64,000 bases of DNA, from positions 685,656 to 749,655 of the forward strand of contig KN832565.1 in assembly GCA_000827205.1 (NCBI GenBank). Direction: 5' to 3'. Every line of letters starts with the position of its first letter. The first letter of the stretch is position 1. The translations under genes were made by a program, and so were the position numbers. The notes under the pieces were generated by a model. It saw only the letters and a list, made by a program, of their open reading frames with translations, had not been told where the DNA came from and made no database searches. This document shows, in pieces, positions 9,202-61,629 of the stretch. The stretch comes from Plicaturopsis crispa FD-325 SS-3 (Eukaryota > Basidiomycota > Agaricomycetes > Amylocorticiales > Amylocorticiaceae).

Positions 9202-11151
9202 TCAAAATACGACTCTAGTCCGCTTGCGCCTTGGCAGAGCAGACCACTCCTCCCCATCCGCAATATGGACATCCGAGCCCGCACATTCCAGCGGGACGTC
9301 GTCCCCGCCCGATATCTCGACGAAGGCGCGCTTGCGGTACTTCTGTCCTGAGCTGGGCGCGAGATGGGACGCGGAGCCCATCGTGCGGTACGGGCCTGGA
9401 GGTGGCGTGAGTGGACCGGGTGCAGTCTGTGCGCCGGACGGGGACGTGGACGGGGTATAGGAGGATGGGGATGAAGAGTCGCGGGGAGGTAGAGACGAGG
9501 CATCGCACAGGGATTGCGGGGACGAAGCTGTCTCCGCGTAGGTTGGCGGCATCGAGCGGGCACGGGATGTGGACCTTGATACTATAGTCGCCAAGGATGT
9601 CAGTGTGACGAAGCATGGGTGAAGATAAAGGGGACGTACAAATCTCCGCCTGCAGAACATCTTCGCCCACACCGCCGTCTCCGAACGTATCCATGTCGAC
9701 GTCGGCAGAGTCAACTGTAGTGTCGACTGAGCCCATGTCGACGTCGCATTCCAGGTCACAGAGATCGTCGTCGTCGTCCTCGACTTCATCCGAATCTGTG
9801 TCATATTCTTCTTCTGTGCAAGATGCGAGCTCGCAGAGCGTCTGCCAGCGCGTTATTTTGACGTACCAAGGTACGGAGTCTTTGGAAGAGCTGTCCTGGA
9901 GTTCCTTCAGGTTCCATTTAGACAGCCGGGGCATGCCCGGGTCGTTGGTCGTGCTCATTGATGTAGCGATTATGCGTCTCCGCCTGGTTTGTTGACTTGA
10001 TGAGATCGATGGCGCCGCGCCGAAGTCTAGTCGCGGGCGCGGGGGTAGGTGCTGCTGGCTCCATTTCTCGTAAACACAACCTGCATGCATGATCCTCGAC
10101 CCTAATTCAATCCGCGCGGGACGGTCGATGGCGCGGGTGTCCTCTAGCTTCCGCAGTGTCCTATGAAACTCGAAGAACGTCTTAATAACTTTGCGCCCGA
10201 GATCGCAGATGACAAAGCGCGGGTGGAGATGTGATCTGACGATGCCAAGAGTTGCGAATGGATAGGAATGGGCGGCAGTTTCCTCGAAAAGTGGCAAGGA
10301 TTGGTCTCCCGTAGATCGCTTTGTAGAAGATCGATGAATGGTCGTGCCTTCCATGGAGCGGCGTGACAGTAGAGTATACTCGAAAATTCCATTCTATAAG
10401 TTATGCAATGAGCCCGAGACACCAGGGACTGACGTAGTACATACCGCCACTTGAGGGAAGTCAGCTCCGACAGGTATCATCTCATCTGCGTAATATGTTT
10501 CTACTGTCTGCGCGGTGGGGACGAGAATCCAATCCCCAGCATCGAATAAACGGCCCAACGCTCTAGTGACTGCAGGGACAATTGGTTAAAAAAATGCTCC
10601 GCACGAGAAAACAGGACAACTTACCGGGAAAGATGTTGTAGCGGCTGTCGGTATTGAGCGACCCGTGGTTTAGGTTCCACGCAGATTCAAGATTGTCGAG
10701 CTAAAAAGCTGGGGGTGAGTCGAAGTACATAAGGAATGGTCAACAGACGGACCTTAGAAGGGTCCAAGTCTCGCGGGATGCAGTACGCCAGCTGGATATC
10801 CGAGTCTGTGTTGGTAAGTAGGCAGCGACCTGCGTTGGGATCGACGGCGTGGGCACGAGCCATGGCGCTTGTAGGGGCGACTGCTCTGCTCATGGTTGAT
10901 GTTGTATCCACCAACGATGTTGTCGAGGACCGGTCGTCGGAGAAATGACTGCATGCGACGCGCAGCGGTGGCGTAGATCCAAGTGGTGTACGCCAGTATT
11001 CATCGCGACCGCTCTTCGACAAAAGAAGACGGTGTCTTTCGCTTGAACCTGCGCGTACGCTCGAGGTGCCATCGCCGCACGATTTGTCGCGCGACTGCTG
11101 GGGTAGAGACGAGTGCGGTGCTGAGTCAACGAGCTTCGAAGACGAGGCCAT
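9202..11151 (-). CDS. HNH-like family copy B, 577 aa, catalytic His replaced
   Basis: Minus-strand exons 10753-11151, 10625-10700 (76 nt), 10445-10569 (125 nt), 9640-10393 and 9202-9581 join in phase. Order: a low-complexity Ser-rich N-terminus; GRCLLTN and QLAYCIPRDLDP (the position of the Agaricomycete 'H-C-L-P-R' HNH motif, with Tyr for His); LNTDSRYNIFP; RLFDAGDWILVP (Gly where the second His is expected); ANGIFEYTLL; LGIVRSHLHPRFVICDLGRK; and the basic motif APSISSSQQTRRRR. A long acidic stretch of D/E and the tail PRRKRTRVVF follow. The fold matches the HNH nuclease-like proteins of mushrooms. Loss of both His argues against nuclease activity. It is divergent from copy C (starts 573 bp apart). 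I chose the ATG at 11151 over 11172 because it begins the conserved-looking part. Confidence 0.82.
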
Positions 11152-11656
11152 TGCAGTATTTTGATGTGTCAAAGCGACCGTTCCAAAGTGTAGAGAATTG
11201 TGACAAGTTCCGCAGTGCGTAAAGTCAGGAAGAGAGAGCAGTTCTGTGTGTTTTTATGAGAAAATGCGGTGTGGACCAAAGGGTGGCCCGGCGATCTGCT
11301 TTCGATCTCGTTTGGATCTCATTGTCCCAGTTTTTGGACTCCGACGAAATGGCTTCAACGTCGATCACATGAACTTCACCTGCATCGTTCGCAGCGCGTC
11401 TCCTGGTCAAGTTCACGCTCATTTTCGCGACTTTGAAAGACATTTTTGTTAACAGAGACTAAAATATATAGAATAACATGCAATAAAACATATACACCGT
11501 GTTCAATCGCGAAACCTGCAGTATGTGGCACGCTTTCCAAGTTTACTGACGTCCGGTGCCGTAGGTTCGCTTTGGCAGCACGCGGAGAAGGCTCTGCGAT
11601 GCCACCCCGAAGCCTGCATTAGGTGCATGCCACCTATTGTCCATTGTTCAGGGCAA

Positions 11657-11663
11657 TATAAAA
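11657..11663 (+). promoter_or_regulatory. TATA box of HNH-like copy C
   Basis: TATAAAA lies 68 bp before the ATG at 11725 and is followed by a pyrimidine-rich leader. Confidence 0.5.
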
Positions 11664-11724
11664 CCCGGCGCCTGCTCTATGGCCTCCCTTATCCTCTCTT
11701 CTTCCCCACCACCATCTTTCCACC

Positions 11725-13177
11725 ATGTCGCGCTCTGGAAGCGCCACCACCGACAGCAAATCTCTTTCTTCCTCTGCTTGTCCTCCTCGTCAGAAGCCTT
11801 CCGGAAGTGGTCACCACGCGGCCAAGAACGTCCCTGCTGGAGATCACGACGCGCCCCCTCCCGACAAAGACGAGGGCAATGCCACATCTTCATCCGATGA
11901 GGACACATCCTCGTCCGACGAGGATAATCATCCCGCCAAGAATTTCCAGCAACATGACGACAGGGGTAACTTCAACCCCCTCACCGACAATTCACATATC
12001 ACCACACGAACTCCCCGCGGACGCCAGCCGCGGAGCAAGCACATCAGGCACGCTACGAAGGAGCGCGTTAATGCGAAGGCTCCGAATAAGAACCGATGTG
12101 CTCTTGAGAACATTGACCCGAACGTGGCCGAAATCCAATATGCACACTGCCTCCCTAGGGCTGCTGGTCTTGAGGTGGTGTGTCGCTGCCTTATTCTTGT
12201 GCCGTATCGTATACTGAACATATCCCGTCTGCTGGACAGCTTGACTCCGTGGAATTCGTCCGTAACATGGAGCCCAATAGCTTCAATGTCGATACCCGCT
12301 GGAATATCTTCCCCTGTATGTCACTGTCAATCCCTCGACATTGTTAAAGATTCGGGTCCCTGATGTGTTATGTCTCATTTTTTTCAGTAAGCAAGCGTTT
12401 CCACAAGAAGTTTGATGCTGGAGAATGGCTTCTTCTTCCGGAGAAACGGTACGTCGAGGCCTACTACAACAACGGCGATGTACTCGTCGCAGAGCGATTC
12501 CCCAAGTTCAAGGTTAGTGGCAGTAATCTATGTTCTTCACTTCAACGCAAGTACTTACGAACTCTGACGTATAGAACGGTGTCTTCAATTATACAGTCGT
12601 GCCGTTACCAAGTATGCAAGAAGACAACATCATCCAGCATCCTGCCCCCGGAGCTGCTACTTCGACTGCTGTTGTCCACCATCACCCATACACGGGGCTC
12701 GTATTACGATCGCACCTACATCCAAGTTTTGTTTTGTGGAACACGGGGAAAAAACTCTCCGACGATAACGCGCATTTCGCCTTTTCAAAGGTGGCCACGA
12801 GAATCATGAAAAGTTCGGACTCGGACACCGATCTGGTTTCAATCATGGACAAAGCTGCTGAAATCTACGAAGTGTGGAATACGCGTATCGACGTCCCATT
12901 GCCGGAGAGACTGCGATCAGTGAAGCAGCCTGGAACAGGCTTAGAGTCCTCTACGCGCTCCGTCAAGCGCCGTCGCGTTGAAGACGATGTAGAGCATGGC
13001 ACCGCTTCCGCAACGTCACCTATGGCCCCTCCTCAGTCGACAGCTCCATCATCGTCCCGGATTCTCTCGCTCCGCCCCCGTACATCTAGCCATCGGGCTA
13101 TCACTACCTCTGCACCAAGCTCTGTGCCAGTGTGTCGCGGAGACCAGGAGCCTAGCACGAAGAAGACCCGCAAGTAA
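11725..13177 (+). CDS. HNH-like family copy C, 417 aa, retains both His positions
   Basis: Exons 11725-12174, 12240-12315 (76 nt), 12388-12512 (125 nt) and 12575-13177. The N-terminal ~130 residues are Ser/Asp/Lys-rich and disordered. The core reads RCALEN, IQYAHCLPRAAG, NVDTRWNIFP and KRFHKKFDAGEWLLLP: Cys, His, Asn and His at the positions expected for the HNH_2-like fold. Then come NGVFNYTVVP and LVLRSHLHPSFVLWNTGKKL. The tail is basic and Ser/Pro-rich (VKRRRVEDD, ending TKKTRK). This copy lacks the extra 3' exon of the other members and is the most divergent. It is the only copy here that could still be a nuclease; substrate and role are unknown. The dispersed repeat at 13208 follows it directly. 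Confidence 0.82.
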
Positions 13178-13207
13178 GCCACTCAAGCCTTCTCTAGGTT
13201 ATTTCCG

Positions 13208-13655
13208 CATATTTTCCTTCTACGTCGCCATGTCCTATATTCCCCTCGTTCCTTCATCCTTGCACCCGTCACATCTCGAGCGACGTTCACCCTCCTTATA
13301 TTATCCGATCCTCGCCGGTCGGTCGCCAGCGCGAGCGATATCCACTTTCCTTTCTGTTATCAGGTTTCCTACTTCTTCAACTCACGAATCAAGGCGAGCG
13401 ACACCCCCCTCCTTTGTATCCTCAAGCTCCTTCTCCAGTCACGAATCATCAAGCCCGAGCGACCCCCACCTTCCCTTACTTACAACGACTCACAAGTCTC
13501 TTGATTATCCGAACTCCCTCGTCGGGCTCCTCCCTAGCGGAGTGAGCATTATATAGGTTATGTTATAGGTTATGCAGAGATCTGCTGTTGTAGCACATAC
13601 TTACTCTGCTTGTTATCGTTACGAATTTTAATGAAATGTGTTAGGCAATACGGGG
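13208..13655 (+). repeat. Dispersed repeat with internal ~65 bp units, copy 1
   Basis: This stretch is homologous over its whole length to the reverse complement of 63527-63995. It carries about four degenerate tandem units, each with a GAGCGACACCCACCTTCC-like core, TTGTATTATCC-like and CTCACGAATC blocks. Both copies end with a CGGAGTGAGC-like block, two TAGGTTATG motifs, and CTGCTTGTTATCGTTACGAA then ATGAAATGTGTTAGG. It has no protein-coding content. Family unknown. Confidence 0.7.
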
Positions 13656-14009
13656 AGTTTGAGTCAATCGCTATAAGCTGTCGGGTTACGCGGTGAGGTT
13701 TTGAGTAAGAATGCATCGACCGTGGCGCTGAAGCACCTGGCACAACTGTTCAGGTCATCTGCGCATGCAATCAACAGTTGCAGTGATCAGGTGCAATTAC
13801 ATACAGTAATTACATTCAGCTTGCACTTAGTGGAAGCAGAGTCAATGATTGTTTTGACTCTTAGTGAGGGATGCTTACGAAGGAGTCCGACCAGATCTCA
13901 CCCAGCCTGAATGCAAAAGGCACATGGAAGGCCCAAAATTATGCTGATAGCGACTCTGTACAGGTAAGATGCACGACAATCAATGCATATACGGCGAACA
14001 AGTGGGAAG

Positions 14010-15843
14010 CTAGACCCCGAATTTTGTCCGTCTGAGTGGTAAACCCCAATCGACTCCTTCCACGCCTACGATGGACGCACGCTTGCAGGATGTCTGAGGC
14101 ATCCCGAACTGCTATGCTGGATTGTATGTTGGATTGAGCGAATTCGACGACGTGTCGTATGGATCGAGAGGCGGCGTGACAGCTCCGACTGGCGTTGTCT
14201 GAAGGGTCGGGGGCGACCCATCCCGGGAGGGTGGCGTGCCCGCGCACGATGGTGGTACAGAACGCGTATCGGTAGCAGGTGCTACACCACACAGGGAGGT
14301 CAGGCTCAAGAGAACAGAGGACAACGGGTGAGACGTACGGAAGCATCACTATGGAGCGCCGTCGCCGTCCATTTTGGCATCGCATTCGGATCCAGAGGCT
14401 TCGGAGGCGTCGGTTTTGAGCGCATCCTCGTCGACGTCGTTGACATCGATAGACTCGTACTCGCAGGCGACCCGCCAGCGCATGATGCACAGATTGGTGG
14501 GTGCCGATCGCTCGGAATAACTGTTCCGGAGGGCCTTCAGGTTTCTGGCAGTCAGCGGAATGATACCTGAAGCACGAGCTGAGCCCGCTCCAGGACTCGG
14601 ACTCGGTCGCGGAGTAGCGCGCCTGCGTTTCGTTTGTTGGCTCGATGATATCGACGGCGCTATCCGGACATCGTCGGTCGGGCGGCGACGTGGTAATCGA
14701 CCGTGCTCCGTCCATTTGGTATACAACATGCCACTATGGGCAATTATGTGACTCAAATCCAGGCGCATATTCCAGTCGACGGGATGAATGTCCTTCGCTC
14801 CGCGTATAAAATCCCCCAAATGCGCCTGGACTTTACGGCCTAGGTTCCAGATGACGAAACGAGGGTGAACGTGCGATCTCAGCACGCCCAGTTCACGGTA
14901 AGGGTACTCGTGAAGAGAATGGGCTTGTGGTAGTGGGCTAGCATTTTCAGCGCTTTCAGGGAGCGGGAAACGACGGATGGGATAGTCCTTCATGCAATGC
15001 CGTGCTAGTAGCTTGTACTCAAAGATTCCATTCTGTAAGAGACAAGCAGTACTGAGACACCAGGCAGGGGTATTTGTGGGACACAGCATCACGTACCGGG
15101 ATATCGGGAAAGTCGCGTCCGATCGGCATTGACCCAGACGCCCAGTAGATATTTAGTTGCTGCATTGTCGGCAAAAGAACCCATTCACCTGTGTCAAATC
15201 GAGAGCGTAGTTCTGCGGTGACTGTGGAAAGGACTTCGTTGACGATATAACAGAAAGGCATAGAAAGAGCGCACCTGGGAAGATGTTATAGCGACTGTCA
15301 GTATTCAAGGTATCGTGTCCCATATTCCAGGCATACTCTAGACTATCAAGCTATGCATAATCAGATGATGAAAGCTTATGAGCGGCCATCGAAGACGAAC
15401 TAGTAACGGTTTGAGTTCTCGCGGGACACAGTATGCAAACTCGACTGCATCGCGCGTGTTTGTAACGAGGCAGCAATCGACACGGGCTTCGACGAGCTTG
15501 TGCATGCGGGCCAGTGCATTTGGGGAACCGTGCCATTGTTCGCTGCTGTGTCGGTGATTATCGAGGTTTTGGTCAATGAGCTGCAGTCAGAAGTCAATTG
15601 GTTGGCCAGTGCAATGCGCAAAGGTGGCGTCTGAATCGCGCTGAGTTCGGATGAAGGTGACAGTGGAGGCGAGCTGTTGCTATTAGGCTCTAGTAGGTAG
15701 GTGCTGGGCACGCAGTCTTGCCAGCTTGGTTCGGCGACCAAGTCCTTGTACCTTGCCCGGCATGGTCGCCAGATTTCTTGTGCAATGTGCGTAGGTGGCA
15801 GTCGACGGGGAGCCGGTTCAGAATAGAAGGATGTCACAGTCAT
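14010..15843 (-). pseudogene. HNH-like family copy D, degraded
   Basis: The exon frame of the family is preserved (15401-15843, 15275-15350 of 76 nt, 15097-15221 of 125 nt, 14339-15032, 14010-14281) with good splice sites. Lesions are visible. Exon 1 has a one-base deletion near 15523 (GGGG where copy G has GGGGG plus C) that shifts frame before the core. In-frame TAG TGA occur just before the exon 4 donor (about 14346-14351), and a TAG lies in exon 5 (about 14115) before the otherwise intact tail GLPLRRTKFGV. The core motifs FAYCVPRELKP, NTDSRYNIFP and APSISSSQQTKRRRA are still recognisable. The few breaks and intact splicing indicate recent inactivation. Exon 1 resembles copy G (SSELSAIQTPP). 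Confidence 0.75.
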
Positions 15844-16043
15844 CCGACTCGCGAGAGGTTAAGCGCTTGAAACTATCGAAGGCAATGGAAGGCGGCGCGT
15901 CATCAAAATCGTCGAGATATGTTCTGGCAAAGGCAAGGTAGACGCTCGACCTCTTCTGTGGCCTTGGAATTAGATTTCCATCAATATTGTTCGTCCGCCT
16001 GCCACCAGTCGACGCGATGCGAACAGGCTGTTCGCATTTCTTG

Positions 16044-16224: not shown

Positions 16225-16236
16225 AAGGTGAGAGTC

Positions 16237-18047
16237 CTAGGCCTCCATTTTAGCCCGCTTGGGAGCTAGTCCCCAACTGTCTCCTTCCACGACTTCGACA
16301 GACGTGCGCTTACTGGACGCCTGAGGCGGCGCAAGCTGCTTCGCTGGGTCAAGCGCATTGGAATCCGTGTCGTATGGATCGGGAGGCAGCGTGACAGGTC
16401 CTAGCGTCGTCCCGAGGCTGATGGGCGACGCATTGCGAGGGGGCGGTGTTCCAGCGCGCGATGGCGATGCGGAACACGCATCGGAGTCAGGTGCTACAAC
16501 ACACCGAAGTCAGCCTGGATAAAGCGGACGGAAACGGGTGAGACGTACGGAAGCATTGTTGGGGATCGCCATCGGACATACCGTTGACATGGCCGTCCAT
16601 TTCAATGTCGCATTCGGACCCAGAGGCTTCGGATGCGTCGGTTTCGAGCGCATCCTCGTCTACATCTTCAACATAGATGGACCCGCACTCGCAAGCGACC
16701 CGCCAGCGCATGATGCGCAGATTAGTGGGGACCGACTGCTTGGAATAACGGCTTTGGAGGGCCTTGAGGTTCCTCGCAGTCAGCGGGATAGCACCTGGAG
16801 GAAGAGCTAAACCTGCTTCCGGGTTCGGTTTAGGTAGCGGAGTCGCGCGCCTGCGTTTCGTTTGTTGGGACGATGATATCGACGGCGCGATCCGGACATC
16901 GTCGGACGGTCTCCGGCGTGGCAGCTGACCATGTTCCATCCATTTACTATATATCCTGCCGCTATGCGCAACTGTGTAGCCTATGGCCAATGATGTATCC
17001 GAGTCAAGGGGATGTCTGTCTTCCGCGCCGTTGATAAGCTCCCAAAAGTGCGACTTGACTTTGCGGCCAAGGTTCCATATCACAAACCGAGGGTGTAGGT
17101 GCAGCCTCATGACGCCTAATTCTTCGTATGGGTACTCGTGAGCGCGATGTTGCTCGTCGGGTGTGGTAGCATCATCGGCGCTTCCTAATCGCGGATACTG
17201 CCGGATGGGGAATCCCTTCATGCGCCGCTGCGCCAGTAACGTGTACTCGAAAACGCCGTTCTAAAGCAGAGAAACAGGAATGGGTTCTGGGAAAGACATT
17301 CACGAGATAATTAGTTGCGTACCGGGATATCAGGAAAATGTCGTCCGATCGGAATCGAACCGGACGCCCAGTAGGTTTCTACTTGTTGTACCGTAGGCAG
17401 AAGAACCCAGTCTCCGGTTTCAAATCGAGAGCGAAGCTCTGCACTAACTGCAAAAAATGACTTCATCAGCGACGAGCTAACAAGAAGGGATAGGAGTTCA
17501 ACGCACCTGGGAAGATATTATAGCGACTATCCGTGTTCAATGTACCGCTCTCCATGTTCCAAGCAAATTCGAGGCTATCGAGCTGGTGTTTGTGAGAGCT
17601 AGCAAAAGAGGCAAAGAAATGACGACAAACCAGTGATGCCTTCGGTTCTCGCGGGACACAATATGCAAACTCGACGGTATCAAGCGTATTGGTGATTAGG
17701 CAGCGATCAATGCGGGTTTCGACGAGTTGCATACGCGCTAGTACATCGGATGGTACTGTGCCGTCGTTCGCGGTTGTGTCGTTGGTTGTTGAGGATCTCG
17801 TTGACGGGCTGTCGGACGTCGACAGGCTGCACATTGTGTTGCACATGGGTGGCGTCGAGCTAAGTTCGCGTGAGGGGGGCGGTGAGGGCTCGTTGTCGCG
17901 CTCTACGATGGTGATGGGTACGCGGTCTTTCCAACTTGGTTCGGCGACTAAGGCCTTGTATCTTGCAACGCATGGTCGCCAGATATCCTGTGCGAGGTGC
18001 GTAGGCGGCAGTTGACGGAGAGCCGGTTCAGAATGGATGGATGTCAT
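16237..18047 (-). CDS. HNH-like family copy E, 528 aa, intact
   Basis: Minus-strand exons 17631-18047, 17507-17582 (76 nt), 17323-17447 (125 nt), 16549-17260 and 16237-16493, all in phase. The N-terminal region starts MTSIHSEPALRQLPPTHLAQ, followed by IWRPCVARYKALVAEPSW, a block shared by D-G and not by I/J. The core reads DRCLITN, FAYCVPREPK, LNTDSRYNIFP and LRSRFETGDWVLLP, with Tyr and Arg where HNH nucleases have His. Then follow NGVFEYTLLAQR, LGVMRLHLHPRFVIWNLGRK, APSISSSQQTKRRRA, an acidic segment near EDVDEDALETD, and the tail LAPKRAKMEA. A likely nuclear localisation is inferred from the basic clusters. The ATG at 18047 aligns with the starts of F and G; an earlier in-frame ATG at 18074 exists. 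Confidence 0.82.
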
Positions 18048-18254
18048 TCGAGTTGCGAGAGGTTGCCAAAGCAAAATACTTCAAGTTGAAGGCAAGCTGA
18101 CAAGTCATGAGATGGTAGAAAGAAAGAGAATGCACTAGATCATTGTGATGTGTTCTTGCCAAAGGCAAACGCGCGACCTTTTCCGTGAATTTCCTGTGTT
18201 CGTTGTAGGTTCGTCGACGCGACGCGAATCGGAACAGGTTGTCTCGGATTTCGT

Positions 18255-18390
18255 GCAACACGTGGCATCTGCAAAAGGAAGTCATAGTGTTCGCTTTTAG
18301 GGTTGTCGAATATCACAATGCGACAATTACATGTAGCTCAACAGGGCTGAACATGGTAGCTACAGTTGAGTGTACAGGTAAGATGCAGCA
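18255..18390. repeat. Shared intergenic block, copy 2 (runs into the N gap)
   Basis: Same block as at 16044-16224, upstream of copy E, cut off by the run of N at 18391. It is also part of the sequence repeated after the gap. Confidence 0.7.
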
Positions 18391-18651
18391 NNNNNNNNNN
18401 NNNNNNNNNNNNNNNNNNNNNNNNNNNNNNNNNNNNNNNNNNNNNNNNNNNNNNNNNNNNNNNNNNNNNNNNNNNNNNNNNNNNNNNNNNNNNNNNNNNN
18501 NNNNNNNNNNNNNNNNNNNNNNNNNNNNNNNNNNNNNNNNNNNNNNNNNNNNNNNNNNNNNNNNNNNNNNNNNNNNNNNNNNNNNNNNNNNNNNNNNNNN
18601 NNNNNNNNNNNNNNNNNNNNNNNNNNNNNNNNNNNNNNNNNNNNNNNNNNN
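18391..18651. other. Assembly gap (261 N)
   Basis: A run of undetermined bases. The sequence before it (17982-18390) and after it (18652-19058) is the same ~407 bp with only a few one-base indels, so the two contig ends probably overlap and the gap may not exist. Confidence 0.95.
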
Positions 18652-19058
18652 GATATCCTGTGCGAGGTGCGTAGCGGCAGTTGACGGAGAGCCGGTTCAG
18701 ATGGATGGATGTCATTCGAGTTGCGAGAGGTTGCCAAAGCAAAATACTTCAAGTTGAAGGCAAGCTGACAAGTCATGAGATGGTAGAAAGAAAGAGAATG
18801 CACTAGATCATTGTGATGTGTTCTTGCCAAAGGCAAACGCGCGACCTTTTCCGTGAATTTCCTGTGTTCGTTGTAGGTTCGTCGACGCGACGCGAATCGG
18901 AACAGGTTGTCTCGGATTTCGTGCAACACGTGGCATCTGCAAAAGGAAGTCATAGTGTTCGCTTTTAGGGTTGTCGAATATCACAATGCGACAATTACAT
19001 GTAGCTCAACAGGGCTGAACATGGTAGCTACAGTTGAGTGTACAGGTAAGATGCAGCA
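18652..19058. repeat. Duplicate of 17982-18390, probably a contig-overlap artefact
   Basis: Almost base-for-base copy of the 5' part and upstream region of copy E. Small one-base deletions (for example GTAGCGGC for GTAGGCGGC) cluster near the gap edge, as at low-quality contig ends. The partial frame on this side should not be counted as another gene. Confidence 0.7.
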
Positions 19059-19082
19059 TGACAATCTATTTATATATACAAA
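18923..19082. repeat. Shared intergenic block, copy 3
   Basis: Same block as at 16044-16224, here forming the 3' flank of copy F. Confidence 0.7.
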
Positions 19083-19094
19083 AAGTTGTGAGTC

Positions 19095-20885: not shown

Positions 20886-20921
20886 CCGACTCGCGAGAGG
20901 TTAAGCGTTTTGAAAGAAGGC

Positions 20922-22804: not shown

Positions 22805-22839
22805 ACCAGTCGATGCGAACAGGCTGTTTGCATTTCTTG

Positions 22840-22997: not shown

Positions 22998-23010
22998 AAA
23001 GTTGTGAGTC

Positions 23011-49900: not shown

Positions 49901-52349
49901 GCCTCCAGTCAGCAAGGCTCCTCCGTGTTGACTCCTGACCAAGTTATTCGCCTCGAAAACTTTGCGAAGCATTCAATATTCAAGCCGGTTCAAGCGCACA
50001 TTACCGAGCATGAAGACGACTGGCTACCTTTCTTGCAGTCCAGTACTCCAGAGAAAGATGTTCCATCTCCGTGGGGGCCTAGCACTCGTGAGTATCTGCG
50101 TCATTGCTTCATTTATGATACTAATTTTTTACTCTACCTTAGCCGCGGTTGAGGCTATGCGCGCTCTCCTCATTATCAAATGCCTGCGGCCTGATCGCCT
50201 CTTACAGGGGACGGCTGCATTCGTGCGTGTCGTGTTCGAAACCGAGTTATCCAACGTGTCCAGTTACGAATTGAGTGCCATGGTCTCGGAGGAGGTCCCT
50301 GCAGCGACACCCTTGGCTCTTGTGTCTGTCCCGGGATACGATGCCAGTTACCGAGTCGAGAGCCTGGTGTCGAACACAGGCGCCCGATCTACGTCAGTCG
50401 CAATGGGCTCGCAGGAAGGTTTTACGCTGGCCGATCAGGCTATCGCAACTGCCTCGCGTCAAGGTTCCTGGGTCCTACTCAAGAACGTCCATCTCGCGCC
50501 CTCGTGGCTTGGCCAACTTGAGAAGAAACTGCAGACGCTCAACCCTCATCGCAACTTCCGCCTATTCTTGACCATGGAGGCCAATCCTTCGATTCCCGTC
50601 AACATTCTCCGGCAATCGCGCCTCATCATGAACGAGCCTCCCCCCGGAATCAAGGCCAATCTCCTCGACTCTCTCCGGAGCATCCCCGGTACGCGTCTTG
50701 CGCAGGGCCCCGCGGAGAAAGTCAGGCTGTATTTCCTGCTTGCGTGGTTCCACGCCGTCGTCCAGGAACGTCTGCGCTATGCCCCGCTCGGCTGGAGCAA
50801 AGCGTACGACTTCAACGACTCCGATATGGCCTCTGCGTTCGGCACGATCGACACCTGGCTGAACACGGTGGCGAAAGGCCGCACGAACATCGACCCTGTG
50901 TCGATTCCCTGGGACGCACTGCGGACGCTGGTCAAGCAGTCCGTGTACGGAGGCAGAGTCGACAGTGATTTCGACCAGCGGATTTTGGACGCGTTTGTGG
51001 ACGGCCTGTTCACCCCTTCGGCGTACAATGTGGACTTTGATCTCGTCCCGAGTATCACGGGCTCGCAGTTACTTGCGGCGCCGGATGGGACGAAGATGGA
51101 CCACTTCCTGTCGTGGGTGCAAGGACTCCCAGACCGTGAGCCGCCATCGTGGCTTAGCCTGCCACCGACCGCCGAGAGGGTCATTGCAGTCGCGCAAGGC
51201 AAGTTTAATTGTTTGGGACTGCTCTTATCATGCTAATTCGCGGGATAGGAAACGAGCTGCTTAGCAAATTGCGGAAGATGAGAATGCTGGCGGACGATGA
51301 CGACGAGGTGACGCCGGCCGCGGGGCCCGCCAAGGGCGCCCCCTCCCAGCAGCCCGCATGGATGCGCAACCTCTTCGAGCGCTGCGGCGAATGGCTCTCC
51401 CAACTGCCCTCCGTGCGTCCCTCCCTTCCTTCCTCCTTCCTCCCTCACACGCACTGACGGAGAGCAATGAATGATCATTTCAGACATTCCATACCCTAGA
51501 GAAGCAGACGGGCGAGAACCAGGACCCGCTGTACCGGCTGTTTAACCGCGAGGGCTCGATCGGGCGCAGGCTGCTCGAGCAGGTGCGGAAGGACCTCGCG
51601 GACGTGACAAGGGTGTGCCAGGGCGAGCTGAAGCAGACGAACCACCTCCGCACGCTCATGAGCGCGCTTACCAAAGGTCCGTCCCCCCTCGTTATCATCC
51701 CCAGTTTGATGGCTTGGCTAACGGTAAGCTGATTGTGTGCAGGCACGATCCCAGACCACTGGCGCCGCTACAAAGTGCACAAATCCATGGCCGTCTCCGA
51801 GTGGATCCCGAACCTCGCGCGGCGCCTCGCGCAGCTGCACTCCATCGCCTCCATCGCCACTGATACCAACAGCCTGAACAACGTGGAGGTGTGGCTGGGC
51901 GGGCTGTTCTTCCCGGAGGCGTATATCACGGCGACGAGGCAGGCGGTGGCGCATAGGAAGGGGTGGAGTTTGGAGACGCTGCATTTGAGGCTGGATATTG
52001 AGCGCGTGAATGATCCGGGGGCGTATATCGTTGATGGTTAGTCGTCTCTCCGCCCTTCCCCAATGAATTAGCTAACGCGTGCATTGATGTAGGTCTGGCG
52101 CTGGAGGGCGCGGCGTGGGCGACGGACCGGCTGGTGCTGAACGACGGGGAGGCCGTGCGCCTGAACCCGTCGCAGATCCGCTGGGTGCAGTCGTCCGACG
52201 ATGCCACAGATACGAATAACTTGGTGAACCTGCCGGTGTACCTGAACAACGACCGGAGCGACGTGCTGTTCACGGTAGAGCTGCCGTTCGACAGCAGCGC
52301 GGGGGCGTTGGTGGCGATGCGCGCAGTTTGCCTTACTGCGGGCGGTTAG
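40921..52349 (+). CDS. dhc2: Cytoplasmic dynein heavy chain, motor half (split gene, Dhc2 type)
   Basis: Twenty exons join in phase to 3461 aa (40921-40926, 40985-41234, 41293-41857, 41908-41992, 42046-42140, 42191-42270, 42322-42335, 42385-42430, 42481-43881, 43937-44012, 44069-44428, 44478-44933, 44986-46864, 46923-47629, 47686-50087, 50143-51198, 51249-51412, 51484-51676, 51743-52036, 52093-52349). Order: distal tail/linker; AAA1 Walker [10 protein letters not shown] (~746) with [12 protein letters not shown]2 GQSGTGKTN (~1051); AAA3 GPPGSGKTM (~1423); AAA4 GVSGSGKTT (~1765); stalk coiled coils and microtubule-binding tip (~2030-2330); AAA5, AAA6 and C-terminal domain ending AVCLTAGG. Full-length chains place AAA1 about 1000 residues later, so the cargo/dimerisation tail is missing. 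Agaricomycetes are known to encode the chain in two genes; this is the motor one. It drives minus-end transport and nuclear migration. Exon 1 is only 6 nt (Met-Glu) and two introns use GC-AG. Confidence 0.92.
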
Positions 52350-53846
52350 ATTTGCGTGCATATAAATACCTAGTCTTGACGATACACTCCTTTTTCTGTT
52401 TGCGTTACACATACCACCTCACGATACATACATACATACCTGGCCCCGTGGATATCACTGTAATTTACGACCGATACGAACTAACACGATCCGTCCTTTT
52501 TCCTCTCATTCAGCTTCATGCGCGTGAATCGAGATCATTTTTCATTATCATCGACAATGGACATTGTGCTGTACAACACTAGTACTGCTCCCCCCAACCA
52601 TCTCGCCTGAACCCGTCGCAGATCCGCTGGGTGCAGTCCGACGCCTCGACCTCCTCTGTATGAGGGTCAAACTGCATTAATTGACCGCGCGCGCGCGCAA
52701 ACTTATTTCGTGTCTACATCGAAAGTAAGACTCCGTGGACCTTGTGCAGTCAATGCGAAGTGTTTGAAAGCCATACCTAACCATAAATAAGCCTTAAACA
52801 CGAGAGAAACTTGGGCAAGTAGGGGATAGCCTGAAATTTGATAAACCACTAATATTTCTGAGGAAGACAGAGACCAAGTGGATGGTAAACAAATCAAGGA
52901 GGATGAATGTCAATGTACAGACCAGTATGCACGAGGAGAAAACAGGACAGGGACAGGCCAGCTATGGCTATGGCCAACCGGACAAGGTCCGAGTGTAGGA
53001 TGATATTCAGACATTAATTGCCGGACTTACTTTGCAGTCCAGGCATGTCTGTCCCATACCCTGTCTCATACCATAGCCCTGATGCCTGAGGAATATGCGG
53101 CTATGCACACACACAGGTTGGCAGGCCTGGTTGGGAAGGGGCCAGGGCCGAGTCCGAGTTAATGGACCAGAGTGGCGGCGGCTACAAGTGACCATACGCA
53201 AGGACCTAAGTAAGCGACGCGAGAAGGTCCATGAAGGTGATGTTGTCCTGCTTACCGCTAGCAGGCGTCCGCGGGCCCACAACCCTTCGTGCTATATCAC
53301 AGTGGTCGACGTTGAGGGCAAGCTTCAGTGGCCGTCGCGGTAGCCGGATATCGGAGTCGGCTCGGGATCCAAGCCGAACGTCGTCGTCGCCGTGACTGAC
53401 GACGACCTCGGGCTCACAGACATGGTCGATAGATGTCGGTGACCATCAGGGAAGGTACTTGAAGGCTCGGGATACCCTAGTATGTGGGTTCTGGTAATAC
53501 TCTCGATTTTGCGCGCGCACTTGAATTGCGCGCCCGAGTTATGCGCGGAAATAATCAAAAGTGCACTTCGCCCACCATATTTCTCTGCCACCACCACGCC
53601 GGTCGAGTCACTCCCGCTCATTTTCTCGACAAATCATCCTCGAGCGCTGCAGGTGCCCATGCAATAGCCTGCAAATAAGACGTGCGTTGTATATTTTGAC
53701 TGTGAGCTTCTCAGTTTTGTGCTGGATCAGTTGCAGTGCACCACTGACAGATAATTTTTGAGTGATCTGAACCATCCTTGCAATCTTGTAGCGCGAAGAA
53801 GGTACTCGAGCACGATAACAGCAAGAACGCAAACCGCACCCGAAAA
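52350..53846. other. Intergenic region with dynein-derived fragment
   Basis: 3' UTR of the dynein gene, a short dynein fragment (52604-52656), a (CG)n tract at about 52686-52698 and the promoter of the homoserine kinase. No further gene is recognised. Confidence 0.45.
52604..52656 (+). pseudogene. Short duplicate of the dynein last exon
   Basis: 35 bp (52604-52638) are identical to dynein 52158-52192. The following bases resemble the diverged copy on the minus strand near 55431-55480 (GCAGTCCGACGCC). It is too short to encode anything. Confidence 0.75.
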
Positions 53847-55031
53847 ATGTCGCGGTCCTTCACCATCCGCGTCCCCGCAACGTCCGCCAACATCGGCCCC
53901 GGCTTCGACGTCGTCGGCCTCTCCCTCTCCCTCTACCTCACCCTCACCGTCTCCATCTCCCCCACGCCCCACCCCGTCCCCGCCCCCGTCCTAACCTACT
54001 CCGGCGAAGGCGCCTCCGACGTCCCCCTCGACGCCTACAAAAACCTCACCACCCGCGTCGCCCTCTACGTCCTCCGCTGCCACTCCGTCCCCTCCTTCCC
54101 GCCCGACCTGCGCATCCACGCACACAACGAGATCCCCTTCGGGCGCGGGCTCGGCTCCTCCGGCGCCGCCGTCATCGCGGGCGTACTCCTCGGCAGCGAG
54201 CTCGGCCAGCTGCGCCTCCCCGCCGCGCGCATCCTGGACTTTGCGCTCATGGTAGAAAGGCACCCGGACAACGTCACCGCCGCGCTCGTCGGCGGCTTCG
54301 TCGGCTCGTACCTGCGCGAGCTCGATGCGGAGGCCACCGAGGCCGCGAGCGTCCCGCTGAGCGAGGTGCTGCCGGAGTATCCGGATGATGCGGGGGAGGG
54401 GTGGGGCGTGGACCCGCCGGTGCCGCCGCATGGGATTGGGCACTACGTGCGCTTTGGCTGGTCCGAGAGCATCAAGGCGGTCGCCATCATCCCGCGGTTC
54501 GAGCTGAGCACGGCGAGGGCGAGGGAGGTCCTGCCCACGATGTATTCTCGCAAGGATCTGGTGAGTCGCGTTTTTTCTCCCACTATGAATCTAACGCATC
54601 CCGACTGCAGGTGTTCAACCTTCAACGCTTAGCCGTGTTGACCACCGCATTAGCGCAATCCCCACCCGACCCGGAGCTCATCTACGAGGCAATGAAAGAC
54701 CGCGTCCACCAGCCCTATCGCAATGCATTGGTGGGTGACTTCCTGCCCCCGTCTCAACTCAGCGTGCGCAGCCCCGGCTCATTCTTGCGTTGCGCAGATT
54801 CCCGGTCTCCCGGAGGTAACGTCCACCATCACGCCCTCGAGCCACCCCGGCCTCCTGGGCATATGCCTCTCCGGCGCGGGGCCCACCATCCTCGCGCTCG
54901 CCACGGGCGGATTCGAGTCCATCGCCGAGGACGCGCGCGCGCTCTTCAGGAAACAGGGCGTCGAGGTCGACTGGAAAGTACTCGACGTGGTCGGTGGCAG
55001 CAGTGTACAACAAAATGACCATTCAAAATGA
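53847..55031 (+). CDS. THR1: Homoserine kinase
   Basis: Exons 53847-54560, 54611-54730 and 54798-55031 give 355 aa, usual for the family. GHMP kinase motifs: N-terminal FTIRVPATSANIGPGFDVVG, the phosphate-binding loop EIPFGRGLGSSGAAVIAGVL (residues ~94-113), HPDNVTAALVGGFVGSY, and the C-terminal GLLGICLSGAGPTILAL. It phosphorylates homoserine to O-phosphohomoserine in threonine synthesis. The first exon is very GC-rich with a strong C bias at third positions, unlike the neighbouring HNH-like genes. It lies inside an inverted duplication of the dynein 3' end (52200-52560 versus 55050-55491). Confidence 0.95.
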
Positions 55032-55049
55032 ACTCCACTCGCGCGCGCA

Positions 55050-55491
55050 CGCCCATGGGACTGAATGAGAGGAAAACGGACGGGTCGTTAGTTCGTATCG
55101 GTCGTAAATTGCATTGATATCCACGGTAGCCAGGTATGTATGGTGAGGTGCAGGTATGTATTAGAGAAAAAGTGAGGCCTATGTATCTACTATACGCACG
55201 CAAATCTATACGCGCCCACACCGCGCTAAGCTAACCGCCCGCAGTAAGACACACTGCACGCATCGCCACCAACGCCCCCGCGCTGCTGTCGAACGGCAGC
55301 TCAACAATGAACAGCACGTCGCTCCGCGGCCGGTCGTTGTTCAGGTACACCGGCAAATTCACGAGGCTGTTCGGCGGGTTGTTCGCGTCTATGGAGGCGT
55401 CGGAGGCGTCGGCGGAGGCGGAGGCAGAGGTGGAGGAGGTGGCGTCGGACTGCACCCAGCGGGTCTGCGACGGGTTCAGGATATCAGCCAT
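55050..55491 (-). pseudogene. Inverted duplicate of the dynein C-terminal exon plus 3' UTR
   Basis: The minus-strand frame 55231-55491 reads MADILNPSQTRWVQSDA, a Ser/Ala/Asp repeat insertion, then [33 protein letters not shown] and [10 protein letters not shown], which is the last ~75 residues of the dynein gene. Similarity continues past the stop into the UTR (ATTTGCGTGC, TTTACGACCGATACGAACTA). It is an 86-codon open frame with its own ATG. Expression is unproven, so it is listed as a gene fragment. Confidence 0.8.
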
Positions 55492-55551
55492 TCAACTTCC
55501 TCTTATACTTATCTTCCACCAGCAAAAGTTCGAACCAAAGAATCTCTGAAC

Positions 55552-57180
55552 ATGATCGCAGGATCGAGTAAACGGCACCGCGTCAATCTCGCAGCTTTGG
55601 CGACGAGTATCTGTAGCGATCAGCGGACAAAATGTATTCGACTCCGTCAATACGAGCGGAACGCACGGAGTCGCTATGAACCAGTGAGTGTTCGTCGTCA
55701 ACATCTTCGGCCTTGACGTCCACTACCACATCTTCATCGGCGCCCGGACACAAAGCCCACAACAGAACGAGTAATCACTCCTCCGGCTACGACGCATCAT
55801 GTACTTGCTGTTGATCCCAACGCCGGGCGGTACTATCTTCTCGCCAACACGGACGACGCTGTCGTTTACGCATATTTGTACACCAAGAGCTTTAGACCTG
55901 GTAGTCTCTGACGAATTTGTTGGTCTATTTCACCGCAAGGACTGGATTCTCGTCCCAACATCAGAGATAGTGAGGACGTATCAGGACCCCCGAATATTAG
56001 GCTAAATGCCGTTTGAATCATCCGGGCAAAATTTGCACTTTTCGCCCGAAGGCCATATGCCATCCGGGCAAAAATCTTGCCCTCTGCGAGGGAGGCCATG
56101 TCGCGTCCGGGCAAAATTTTTGCAGGGTGAAGGGGCGGCGCCGCCACCAAAATTTTGCGCTTATGCACGTGATCTTTTGGGTGGGTAAAGCGCCCGAAAA
56201 GGCAATAAGGCCAGTTGCCATCCGGGCAAAATGGGATCCGTCCCTCGCAAATCATCCGGGCAAAAAAAATCAGCTTTTGCGATTTTCATAACGGCATTTA
56301 CCCTAATATTCGGGGGTCCTGACGTATCACGCAGAAAGAGCGAATCCCATCGGACCTGACTTCCCTGACATCCCGGTATGCGTGCCACCCATACCGTACT
56401 AGCTAATATTACAATAGCTGACTATCTTCCCCGTAGAACGGCGTCTTCGAATATACCCTTCTGCCGCGGGTATCAATGAAAAAGACCGTCATACGCCAAC
56501 ATTCGTCTCGTACTGACCTCCTCTCGGAGTAAGTCGTCGCCCGCAAGGACGTATGCCCATTCGAAACATCGGGGTCCTCAGATAACACCTCCCCCCGCGC
56601 TTAGCCATCTGGGACCTCGGCCGCAAACTCGATAAGGACTGTGCGGATTGGATCTCCACGGCGCACTCGAGGATGTCCACCGCGCGGTCGAGGGTGCCGT
56701 CGGCGCACTGGAGGATGTCGACGGCGCTGTGCAAATGCCGATCCGAAACGCGTCGTCGAGGTGCTCGTGCGTCTCTTGCACGCGTGCCGGGTATACGAGA
56801 AGTGCGTTGGGTCTACGACACGTGGGTCTGCCAGCGCACACCGTGGGTCGGCCAGCGCGTACCGCCACGGCCCAGACAGGTCGCGCCGCCACGGCCCAGC
56901 CACGTCGCGCCGTCCACATTCGATCGTCCAGCCGGAAGACGCAGCGCAGGCGTGCATCCGACAAGCACGCGGCCCCTGGCTGTTCCCGACTGACCTCAAG
57001 CATTTGCGAGATAGGGAGGTCGACTGCGTGGACCTGCCAGCATCATCCATTGGCGACTAGCGACCGGCCTGCGAGCGCGCGTTGAATGATGAATGCCAAC
57101 TCGGGAGGCACGCGGCTGTTATGTTCGGAGGACCATGAGACGGCAGACATATGCCAACCCCGTCAACGATTGTGCAGCGT
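55552..57180 (+). pseudogene. HNH-like family copy H, degraded and interrupted by a MITE
   Basis: Similarity to copies I and J is clear but broken. A 5' part starts at ATG 55552 (compare ATGATCCCAAG in I/J), followed by remnants of the exon 1 core (LLANTDDAVVYAYL). Exon 2 (76 nt) is missing. Exon 3 is recognisable (VGLFHRKDWILVPTSE) until a 338 bp element interrupts it at 55983. It resumes at 56329 (IPSDLTS/GPDFPDIP region) with the splice sites and NGVFEYTLLPR of exon 4, after which several frameshifts and stops accumulate. The 3' end is not well defined (about 57180). Confidence 0.75.
55983..56320. mobile_element. 338 bp MITE with perfect 19 bp TIRs and 8 bp target-site duplication
   Basis: The ends are AGGACCCCCGAATATTAGG and its exact reverse complement, with imperfect extension inside (TAAATGCCGTT / AACGGCATTTA). 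The flanks 55975-55982 and 56321-56328 are both GACGTATC. The interior repeats CATCCGGGCAAAA-like motifs at least four times, on both ends, as expected for subterminal transposase-binding sites. No coding capacity. An 8 bp duplication and short TIRs fit a hAT-type non-autonomous element, though superfamily assignment is inference. Confidence 0.88.
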
Positions 57181-57431
57181 GCTTATTTGATCTCTTCTGT
57201 TTTTGTCCGACGAGTCTAGGGACTTGGTTTCTAGTATCAAGATGATGTATTACCCTTACCATGAACATCCTTAAGTCATGAACATCTTAAGGCAAGAAAC
57301 CGAGCGGAAACGGTAACGGTCAGGAGTCAGGACACCTTTTGTTCCAAGTAATCCACGGTGAGGAGAGACGATAGCAAGTAGCTTGAGCGCTTGACAAGTA
57401 CTTCGACGCGTAGCACTTGGAGTCTTGGACA

Positions 57432-57675
57432 ATGTTTGATTCAGACTCAGCGGCTCCCTTTGTTCAGTTTTCGATCTCCGCTCCCAGTTGCTTTCGCCGC
57501 TGTTTGACGCGACGCGCGCCGCACTTTCGACAATTCCACTCAGTACTAACCCAGCGACGGGGCCATTTCCGCGCAGTCGAGCATTAGAGAAGGCTTATAT
57601 CTACGGCCATCTTGTCCTTGCAATCCTGCTAGGCTCCTTACTGCCCTGTTGCGAACCGACTTGGAGACTCACAAC
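57432..57675 (+). promoter_or_regulatory. Upstream region of copy I, near-identical to that of copy J
   Basis: About 240 bp before the copy I start match 59597-59849 before copy J with only about four substitutions and one 8 bp indel (read by eye). It probably contains the promoter. Confidence 0.6.
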
Positions 57676-59083
57676 ATGATCCCAAGATCAAGCACACGTC
57701 GGCGGCCCGGGCACTGTTTTAAATCTCACAGCTTTGGCGACTCGGAGTGTCTCAGGCAGCCTTCAGCGCACAGAATCTTTGCGACTCCATCAATACTAGC
57801 GGACCGCACCGACTCGGAGTGCTCGTCGGCGACATCTTCGGCCTGGACGTCTACCACTGGCAGTACTGGCACATCCTCGGCGGCGACCACAGAAGGGACG
57901 ATAGAGCGCGAAATCGCGCCCCCGGGCGCGGCGCGTCGGGTACTCGCAACTGACCCCAACTCCGGGCGGTGTCTTCTTACGAACACAGACGAAGCTGTCG
58001 AACTTGCGTATTGCGTGCCAAGAGAGTTGGAGCCAGCCGTGGTAAGTCCCTGTGTATGTTCGATCTGGCCTGTTGTTCAAGTAGTTTTCTTTTCTAGCTT
58101 AACAGAATAGAATTTGCTTGGAATCTCGAGCACGGGACACTGAACACCGATAGTCGGTACAACATCTTTCCTGGTGCGTCAATCGCAGTTCTCTTTTTCT
58201 CTTCTTTCTAACGCAATCATATGTAGTCACCGCAGAACTTCGTGATCTATTTTATCATGATGAGTGGCTCCTCATTCCAAGCGCAGAAGTCGTGAACACG
58301 TACGATGCAGAAAGGACGATCCCAGTTGGACCAGATTTCCCTGATATCCCGGTATGTGTGTGAATCAACGTAGAAATCCGTGCTGACCTACGACCTACGC
58401 AGAACGGAGTGTTTGAGTATACTCTGCTACCACGGCATTCCATGACGAATACCACCATCCGCCGATATCCGTGCGCAGACGGTATTCGCTCTACACCACT
58501 TCCGCAAGAGTGCTCCAGTCATCAGTACCCATTCGAGCGGCTCGGCGTATTCAAGTCCCATCTGCACCCGCGATTCGTCATCTGGGACCTCGGCCGAAAG
58601 CTCGCTAACGAGTTCACGAATTTCCACCTTGCGTTAAGGGACATGTATGAGACGGAATATCACGCCGGTGACAGTCGCGCGGAGGTGCTCAAGCGGCTCT
58701 TGGCTGCGGGCCGGGTTTATAAAAAGTGGATTGGCCAGAGCACATTGCCACGGCCGAGGCAGGACGCCGAGATTGCGCGTTCTGTGTCGTCTAGCCGGCA
58801 AACTAGGCGCAGGCGTGCGGTGCCGCCGTCTGACTACGACTCAGCTTCTGGTGGGCTTCAATTGACCTCGAGGAACCTCAAGAGGCTGCGGGCTGGTGAG
58901 GCCGACTGCGCGGTGCCTGTTGACCTGGGCATTATCCATTGGCGATTCGCCTGCGAGCTCGCGTCGGACGCTGACAACAGCCTAGTAGATGATGGCCAAG
59001 TGGACGATATTTTCTGCTCAGAGGACCATGGGACGGTCGACGACGACATGTGCGATAACGATGCGCGGCAGCGATTGTGCTAG
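57676..59083 (+). CDS. HNH-like family copy I, 415 aa, lacks the last exon
   Basis: Exons 57676-58041, 58098-58173 (76 nt), 58227-58351 (125 nt) and 58403-59083. The core reads GRCLLTN, LAYCVPRELEP, LNTDSRYNIFP and LRDLFYHDEWLLIP, with Tyr for the first His and Arg at the second. Then NGVFEYTLLPRH, LGVFKSHLHPRFVIWDLGRK and ARSVSSSRQTRRRRAVPP. At the place where copy J has the exon 4 donor (CTGC then GTAAGT) this copy reads TTGTGCTAG, so the frame stops and the C-terminal Ser/Pro/KRTK exon is lost. No stops or frameshifts elsewhere. Its upstream region is nearly identical to that of copy J, while exons 3 and 4 differ strongly. Confidence 0.8.
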
Positions 59084-59596
59084 CTCAACATCTCCTGTTC
59101 TTATCTGGTGCCTTGGTTCTTAATGTCGCAACATATTGTACCCTCCCCATCAATACTCTTCAAGCAGGCACCGCGTGCAGAAATGCGCTCTGCTGGCTCG
59201 ATCGTATGATTCGTATCCATTCTCAGGGTCTTTGTGTCTGTCCAAGTCCACGTAGGCCTTCGTCTTGAAAAGCAAGTGCGGGTGCGATTGACATAGTAAG
59301 TAATGGGTTTGATGAGAGAAACGTGTTTAGCCTAGCGCAGCCTCGTATTGAAACAAGCTACTTAGTCCACTGTGGACGATGGGGTGGGAATAATTGTAGC
59401 ATGGAGGCAAACCACTTTGACGCACTGTGCTGTGACGCCGCAACCGTGCTGTCGCACAGTGGGTCCAAAAATACAGGGGCTCGTACCGTGAAGAGCCTGA
59501 TATGTTTTCTGCCCCTTCCAATAACTGTAAGTACTACTTCAGACTGCATGAAATTGTTGGACGCGTCGCGACGAGGTCTGACGAGGTCAGCTGGAC

Positions 59597-59849
59597 AATG
59601 TTTAAAACTTTGATTCAGACTCAGCGGCTCCCTTTGTTCAGTTTTCGATCTCCGCTCCCAGTTGCTTTCGCCGCTGTTTGACGCGACGCGCGCCACACTT
59701 TCGACAATTCCACTCAGTACTAACCCAGCGACGGGGCCATTTCCGCGCAGTCGAGCATTAGAGAAGGCTTATATCTACGGCCATCTTGTCCTTGCAATCC
59801 TGCTAGGCTCCTTACTGCCCTGTTGCGAACCGGCTCGGAGACTCACAAT
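59597..59849 (+). promoter_or_regulatory. Upstream region of copy J, duplicate of 57432-57675
   Basis: See the copy I upstream region. This copy has 8 extra bases near 59606 and a few substitutions. Confidence 0.6.
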
Positions 59850-61629
59850 ATGATCCCAAGATCAAGCACACGGCCCGGGCACTGTTTTAAATCTCACAGC
59901 TTTGGCGGCTCGGAGTGTCTGCAGCCTTCAGCGCACAAAATCTTTGCGACTCCATCAATACTAGCGGACCGCACCGAGTGCTCGTCGGCAACATCTTCGG
60001 CCTGGACGTCTACCAGTACTGGCACATCTTCGACGGCGACCATAGAGGGGACGATAGAACGAGAAATCGCGCCTCCGGGCACGGCGCGTCGTGTACTCGC
60101 GACTGACCCCAACTCCGGGCGGTGTCTCCTCACGAATACAGACGAGGCCGTCGAATTCGCGTATTGCATACCCAGAGACTTAGACCCAGCCATGGTAAGT
60201 CCCTGCGAATGTTCGGACTGTCCTACTCTCATGTCTTTACACGTGCAGCTCGAAAGCACTGAGTACTCCTGGAATATGGAGCACAATACATTGAATACAG
60301 ATAGTCGCTATAATATTTTCCCTGGTAAGCCATCTACGCTTTCTCCCAGTCCTGAAACTAACAGCATTTTAGTCATTGGAATGCTTGGTGATCTATTTCA
60401 CCGTAAGGATTGGATTCTTGTTCCAACCTCAGAGCAAGTGAAGACGTACTATGCAGAAGGGGCGATTCCCGTCGGACCTGAGTTTCCTGACGTTCCAGTA
60501 TGTGTGCTATTCAGTCCGCAGCCCATACAATAACAGCTAACCGAACTTCCCCCAGAACGGCATTTTCGAATATACTCTACTGCCGCGGGTGTCCATGAAG
60601 AATATCGTCATACCCCAACACCGGTCTCGCAATGATCTCTCTACACCACTCGCGGAGCAAGCGGTCGCTCACAAGTACCCATTCGAAAAGCTCGGGGTAC
60701 TCAAATCACACCTTCACCCGCGATTCGTTATCTGGGATCTCGGCCGCAAACTCGATAAAGACTTCCCGGATTTCCACGGCGCGCTCGAGGATGTCTACGC
60801 GACCGAAAGCCACGCCGCTGATCCGGAAAGCGTCGTCGAGTGGCTAGTGCGACTCCTGAACGCGTGTCGGGTCTACGAAAATTGGATAGGCCAGAGCACA
60901 CCGCCACGGCCGAGGAAGGACGCCGAGCTCGCGCCTTCCGTCTCGTCCAGCCAGCAAACCAGGCGCAGGCGTGCAGTGCCGCCGTCCGACCACCACTCAG
61001 CCAGTAACGCAGGCTCCGGCGCACCCCGACTAACCTCGAAGAACCTCAAGGCCCTCAGAGCTAGCGAGCCCAGCTGTTTAGTGCCCGCTGACCTGTGCAT
61101 CGTACAGTGGCGACTGGCCTGCGAGCGCGCGTCGAATGATGAAAATGCTTTTCAAGCTGAGGACCAACCCGGTTGCGACGTGGGCGATATCTCCTGCTCA
61201 GAGCACGGCTCCGACGACGATACATCTGATGTTGAGGCACAGCAGAGACTGCGTAAGTTCTTTATTTGGCATTCATTTCCGAGTCTCGGATACTGACATT
61301 CTTACACAGCATCGGAGCCCGACGTGTCTTCGATGGCGCCGTCCCGTACATCGTCGCCATCCCGCGACGTGTCTTTGCATACCTCGAATTCGTTGTCTCA
61401 TTTACCGGGCATCTCGTCGCCCCCTCGCAACACATCGTCGTCCAGTACTCGAACGACGTCCGACTCGCTGGAACCCGTTACCTCACCACTGTCTCCACGT
61501 GCCGTGCGGATGCCCGCCACCACAGGACATTGCGAATCCCCTCAAATACGTAGCAAGCGTGCGTCAGTCGAGCTCGACAATGAAGACGAAGGGGATCGCT
61601 TGCGCAAACGGACTAAAATCGGGGTTTAG
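59850..61629 (+). CDS. HNH-like family copy J, 520 aa, intact
   Basis: Exons 59850-60194, 60249-60324 (76 nt), 60373-60497 (125 nt), 60556-61252 and 61310-61629 join in phase. Residues ~93-110 carry GRCLLTN and FAYCIPRDLDP (Tyr for His). Exon 2 gives LNTDSRYNIFP and exon 3 GMLGDLFHRKDWILVPTSEQ (Gly at the second His position, although a His lies three residues further on). Exon 4 gives NGIFEYTLLPR, LGVLKSHLHPRFVIWDLGRK, APSVSSSQQTRRRRAVPP and an acidic segment. Exon 5 is Ser/Pro-rich and ends RKRTKIGV. Basic clusters suggest a nuclear protein. All indels against copy I in exon 1 are multiples of three, which argues that both frames were under selection. Confidence 0.85.

Follow-up and report, generated by a model that had tools for sequence, protein, structure and literature searches.

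A family of putative HNH-type nuclease genes in Plicaturopsis crispa with divergent pairs of histidine-bearing and histidine-altered paralogues

Introduction

Divergent, head-to-head pairs of related genes, multiplied within a cluster, are known in basidiomycetes from the HD1/HD2 mating-type genes. Here we describe head-to-head pairs in a family of putative HNH-type nucleases of Plicaturopsis crispa FD-325 SS-3, found from a stretch of 64,000 nucleotides (the window; contig KN832565.1, here C12, positions 685656-749655) of the 33.2-Mb genome, which is assembled in 49 contigs. Its members are C-types, which keep the His, Asn and His (H-N-H) of the motif, and B-types, in which the first His is replaced. 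In contrast to HD1/HD2 pairs, no homeobox match was seen in the 11 family proteins scanned with Pfam (B, C, F, G, I, J, C062, C068, C2b, C2c and B062b, with C2b and B062b lacking their last residues).

The C-types share with HNH_2 (PF13391) proteins a Cys at the start, an AHxxxR stretch, an Asn followed by His at +9, and H-x-x-[FY]-D; the family differs from them in scoring below 21 bits, in B-types without one or both His, and in its divergent pairing. According to excerpts of the TagI study, nucleophile activation falls to the first His, the Asn may stabilise the motif, and the second His is an essential ligand of the catalytic metal (PMC6212794). In the bacterial HNH restriction enzyme PacI, an excerpt places Tyr as general base instead of His and has the metal held by Asp and Asn (PMC4081073); 14 of the 15 B-types modelled likewise have Tyr at the place of this His, and those of contig C12, unlike PacI, also lack the second His. 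The fungal Dis3L2/Ssd1 pseudonucleases likewise have lost a nuclease active site while remaining in use as proteins; they differ from the present family in being RNase II family exoribonucleases, and the abstract on them mentions no head-to-head active paralogue (PMC8097288). The HNH-bearing Crinkler (CRN) effectors resemble it in having an HNH-like nuclease motif and being nuclear, with one example from a chytrid fungus in the excerpted source (PMC5289972); general Pfam scans of the 11 proteins gave no model for the CRN N-terminal ubiquitin-like domain, for which no dedicated search was made. Among the matches listed in the open-access literature, which leaves most subscription papers uncovered, there was no paper on this nuclease-like family.

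Copies and active-site residues

The family occupies three contigs (C12, ~677.7-753.6 kb; C2, 2848-2853 kb; C16, 305-311 kb), runs past both ends of the window and has at least 21 copies in the genome, as counted from the best candidates of whole-genome searches with the J, C, C068 and C2c cores. Left of the window on C12 lie C062, B062b, B062c and, at the cluster end, a 5´-truncated B-type fragment (L062 1249-2089; C12:677.7-678.6 kb); right of it lie C063 and B063, and the nearest outside C-type has its 3´ end 15 nt beyond the last base of the window. The other loci hold C2a, C2b and C2c on C2, and C16a, C068 and C16b on C16. Nineteen cores were modelled, four of the C-type and 15 of the B-type; pseudogene K and the truncated fragment are excluded from the counts and included in the label-shuffling list below.

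The first active-site slot holds His in C, C062, C063 and C068 (4/4 C-types), Tyr in 14 B-types and Phe in the fifteenth, copy H. In the second slot, His is found in all four C-types and in 5/5 B-types of C2 and C16, which are Tyr-Asn-His and have lost the first His only. The ten B-types of C12 have Arg (7) or Gly (3) there and are altered at both positions without exception. The B-types thus retain the first His in 0/15 and the second in 5/15 cases, and double loss is seen only on C12. Asn and Cys are retained in 19/19 cores.

The sequence-only reading of the window had put forward ten copies, all but one devoid of both catalytic His and kept open by selection beside one putatively active gene. 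We searched for the pattern AG, 76 nt, intron, 125 nt, intron, and then by tblastn with the eight resulting proteins (E <= 1e-3). This gave nine copies rather than ten, eight with in-frame exons 2 and 3 of 76 and 125 nt and GT..AG introns, to which tblastn added only the decayed copy K. The models are predictions from DNA, and their letters do not correspond one-to-one to those of the earlier reading. They are, with the region inside the window pair:

9202-11151, minus strand: copy B, B-type (AYC; Gly in the second His slot), 5 exons, 577 aa, head-to-head with C
11152-11724, no strand: region between the predicted B and C start codons, 573 nt
11725-13177, plus strand: copy C, C-type with H-N-H kept, 4 exons, 418 aa, complete model
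14349-15843, minus strand: copy E, B-type (AYC, Arg), damaged, with the reading frame broken in exon 1, a premature stop in exon 4 and another stop in exon 5
16237-18047, minus strand: copy F, B-type (AYC, Arg), 5 exons, 528 aa
19095-20885, minus strand: copy G, B-type (AYC, Arg), 5 exons, 521 aa
23011-24846, minus strand: copy H, B-type (AFC, Arg), 5 exons, 535 aa
~55552-57093, plus strand: copy K, pseudogene with stops, lost parts and a MITE-like insert at ~55981-56322
57676-59083, plus strand: copy I, B-type (AYC, Arg), 4 exons with no fifth one found, 415 aa
59850-61629, plus strand: copy J, B-type (AYC, Gly), 5 exons, 520 aa

Much of the earlier description holds for the window. The shared exon sizes recur in 8/8 copies, YAHCLPR and RFHKKFDAGEW lie in copy C (catalytic His codons 12145-12147 and 12402-12404), the remaining copies carry AYC (6) or AFC (1) with Arg (5) or Gly (2), and the structural Cys and Asn are conserved in 8/8. 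Loss of both His applies to 7/8 modelled window copies and fails genome-wide, where three further copies outside have both. Likewise, of the seven copies without these His, five (B, F, G, H and J) are complete five-exon models, as the claim of open frames requires, and two are not: copy I lacks exon 5, ending in a stop at the site of J's last donor, and E is broken as listed. In place of one active gene beside a dead array, we find two subfamilies, divergent pairs at four places, and extra copies of the altered type.

The tenth copy could correspond to the stretch 18652-19057, which repeats F's 5´ end and G's 3´ flank and adjoins an assembly gap (N at 18391-18651) between F and G. The flanks of this gap (18000-19057) repeat one stretch, with 300 nt at 100% identity and small indels closer to the gap. 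Since they are copies of one stretch, an unmerged assembly overlap appears more likely than a hidden family copy.

Exon 2 measures 76 nt in 19/19 models and exon 3 125 nt in 14, with 128 nt in two C16 B-types, 131 nt in C062 and C063, and 152 nt in C068. Introns are ~50-70 nt in the models. For the eight B-types outside the window, exon lengths were set by us and the splice sites then checked; all are GT..AG except the GC donor of C2a exon 2. The C068 model requires a GC donor after exon 3.

Divergent pairing and origin of the two types

Every C-type (4/4) is divergent from and head-to-head with a B-type within 800 nt. The predicted start codons are 575 nt apart in C062/B062b, 574 nt in B/C, 575 nt in C063/B063 and 725 nt in C068/C16b, and no second close head-to-head junction occurs between any of the copies listed for the C12 and C16 clusters. 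Pairing as complete arose in 16 of 1365 shufflings of the type labels over the C12 and C16 copies, a figure to be read with three of the pairs being mutual duplicates. In a tree of the 19 cores, the two types fall on opposite sides of one branch (support 96/96; 95% of bootstrap trees), and the split persists without the two His columns (92/95; 92%). The C2/C16 B-types are split from those of C12, and the pair therefore appears older than the separation of the loci; the position of C068 is less sure, as it sits on a long branch (2.1). The simplest reading of these data would be one ancestral pair that was later copied.

Ordinary tandem duplication, with the B-types as a neofunctionalised branch and the head-to-head order merely inherited from one ancestral pair, would explain why the three C12 pairs are segmental duplicates that include the region between the genes, and why members such as E, K and I are decayed or shortened. 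We nevertheless consider it rather unlikely, as the head-to-head order is also found on C16, where the C-type is strongly diverged and the intergenic region has no DNA match to that of C12.

Pairwise identities of the start-codon interval (573-574 nt) in the three C12 pairs are 95, 96 and 93%, and a DNA search of the genome found it at these three places only, with no match at C16. Over the initial 200 nt of B exon 1, identity among these pairs is 92%. Most of the adjoining gene sequence is much less alike: between the window pair and the other two, C exon 1 is 56-66% identical and introns are 31-58% identical, those of C being at 31-44%; B introns over the three comparisons are 45-63% identical. 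Near-identity extends into the C-type gene as well in C062 and C063, of which exons 1-3 are 95-100% and exon 4 71% identical. Copies I and J have a similar uniform block (86% identity in 300 nt of upstream sequence, 92% in exon 1 and 45-63% in introns), and G and H have none (upstream 38%, exons 81-96%). Gene conversion or recent recombination seems a likelier source of the uniform start-codon region than strong constraint.

An 88-nt inverted repeat, 77% complementary, lies downstream of C and C063 (13321-13408 / 63775-63862); the duplicated unit may thus include the C-type 3´ flank.

Relationship to HNH nucleases and selection

Five of the 11 scanned proteins match HNH_2 at E <= 0.02 (C 17.3 bits, C062 16.0, C068 15.9, C2b 15.3, C2c 20.9), with no match for B, F, G, I, J or B062b. 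When the core segments were isolated, 7/11 matched at E <= 1, the best at 3.9e-5; the core is split across three exons. Elsewhere in the genome there are two HNH_2 matches above the cut-off, and all four C-types have the Asn-to-His spacing of 9 found in these two proteins. Alignment by hhalign to their HNH_2 domains places H, N and H in register, at a probability of only 3% (P 0.014). A PDB sequence search with two profiles returned no nuclease and chance-level matches only (E 0.43-0.73), NCBIfam gave nothing relevant for three proteins, and no relatives of the exon-4 part were confirmed in viral and prokaryote contigs. On balance the family core is likely to be HNH-like, in line with the sequence-only reading.

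Given the roles of the two His in TagI, the C12 B-types lack both chemical groups, and "pseudo-nuclease" is likely an apt term for the B-types of this contig, which carry Arg or Gly at the presumptive metal-binding His; it is less so for the Tyr-Asn-His B-types of C2 and C16. The B-types might instead still be nucleases that use Tyr as general base. PacI gives a precedent for Tyr in place of His (excerpt, PMC4081073), Tyr is conserved in the first slot of 14/15 B-types, and the second His is kept in 5/5 of those on C2 and C16. On C12, however, this His is replaced by Arg (7) or Gly (3) in all ten, and it is metal-binding and essential in the excerpted account of TagI (PMC6212794); copy H, moreover, has Phe in the first slot. 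We regard retained Tyr-based activity as quite improbable. The losses look stepwise, the first His in 15 B-types and the second in ten on C12, and show a possible route to an altered-enzyme branch.

Selection on the altered copies was examined by Nei-Gojobori dN/dS with 1000 codon bootstraps in 11 chosen pairs (nine B-B, two C-C). Whole-core values are 0.16-0.47 with upper bounds below 1 in 11/11 pairs, including the nine B-type pairs, as expected of purifying selection and not near 1, in agreement with the sequence-only reading. For the HNH part alone, dN/dS is 0.09-0.43 and the upper bound is below 1 in 9/11 pairs (G-H 1.09, C062-C063 1.24). Some bootstraps of distant pairs are undefined, and the weight rests on close pairs because dS of distant pairs is saturated or undefined (45 of 171 pairs listed). 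The damaged copy E gives 0.28 and 0.37, like the other copies, so that either the gene was damaged recently or the test resolves little at such depth.

Proposed mechanism

The favoured, still tentative, explanation is a two-part system in which an HNH_2-like nuclease is co-expressed with a catalytically altered partner. The C-type would encode a putative nuclear endonuclease of HNH fold, active through a general-base His, Asn and metal-binding His. The divergent B-type would encode a paralogue with the same core, presumably inactive, with Tyr or Phe instead of the first His (and, on C12, Arg or Gly instead of the second). Both genes would be expressed from the interval that separates their start codons, yielding the two proteins together, and B would then pair physically with C as a regulatory, inhibitory or target-binding subunit. 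Both types might act in the nucleus, as suggested by a basic SSxxxTKRRR-like block (e.g. SSSQQTKRRR) after the core in 16/19 models of both types.

Several observations weigh against this two-part system. None of the 11 proteins reaches the HNH_2 whole-protein cut-off of 21 bits, the best scoring 20.9. The predicted structure of the exon-4 part, made from the eight window rows, is of low confidence (mean pLDDT 50.9, pTM 0.32). Only two independent loci are left once the three duplicate pairs of contig C12 are counted as one; most B-types have no C neighbour of their own; and neither a C-type nor a remnant of one was seen in the C2 cluster of three B-types. Finally, exons 1-3 of C062 and C063 are near-identical and their B partners are not (70-82% identical in exons 2 and 3), and the partners are therefore not visibly co-evolving.

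A related possibility is that of a poison-antidote or self/non-self element, in which the C nuclease is harmful unless a matching B binds it and extra B copies widen protection. The apparently intact nuclease divergent with an altered homologue, the several diverged pairs and the excess of the altered type over the C-type are what such an element would predict. It is improbable in view of the absence of dN/dS above 1 in the 11 pairs tested, the near-identical C062 and C063 cores with differing B partners, and the lack of mating-type genes beside the family. More broadly, the pairs may represent an undescribed fungal two-gene system in which a shared promoter drives an HNH-type nuclease and a twin that restrains or aims it, with the pairs diversifying while gene conversion keeps the promoter uniform, much like a locus for self-recognition or of the poison-antidote kind; we hold this to be a rather unlikely reading of the sequence. 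If the pairing is functional, it would offer a eukaryotic example, open to direct test, of a nuclease that an altered paralogue of its own restrains or guides. What was a list of degenerate copies becomes a defined two-gene unit, and is worth follow-up on that account.

Genomic setting

A mating-type locus was considered as an identity for the family and rejected: STE3 matches lie on contigs C19 and C21, and Homeobox_KN matches on C11 (one) and C2 (two). The two on C2 (C2:2637189-2643176) are ~0.2 Mb from the C2 B-type cluster and are possibly the HD mating locus. The STE3 pheromone-receptor genes, and the intron lengths given above, are as expected of a fungus.

The MITE-like element within pseudogene K (55981-56322) has 33-nt terminal inverted repeats that are 97% complementary. 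It was found at 20 further genomic places, and at 18 of these it is nearly full-length and 91-96% identical.

Among ten scanned of the 75 listed open reading frames, the other window genes include an F-box-like protein (3.7-4.6 kb), an ABC transporter piece (25.7 kb), a dynein heavy chain (~42-51 kb) and a GHMP kinase (53.8 kb). An inverted repeat of 103 nt, 92% complementary, flanks the reading frame of this kinase, with arms at 52254-52356 and 55224-55326 that are 2.9 kb apart.

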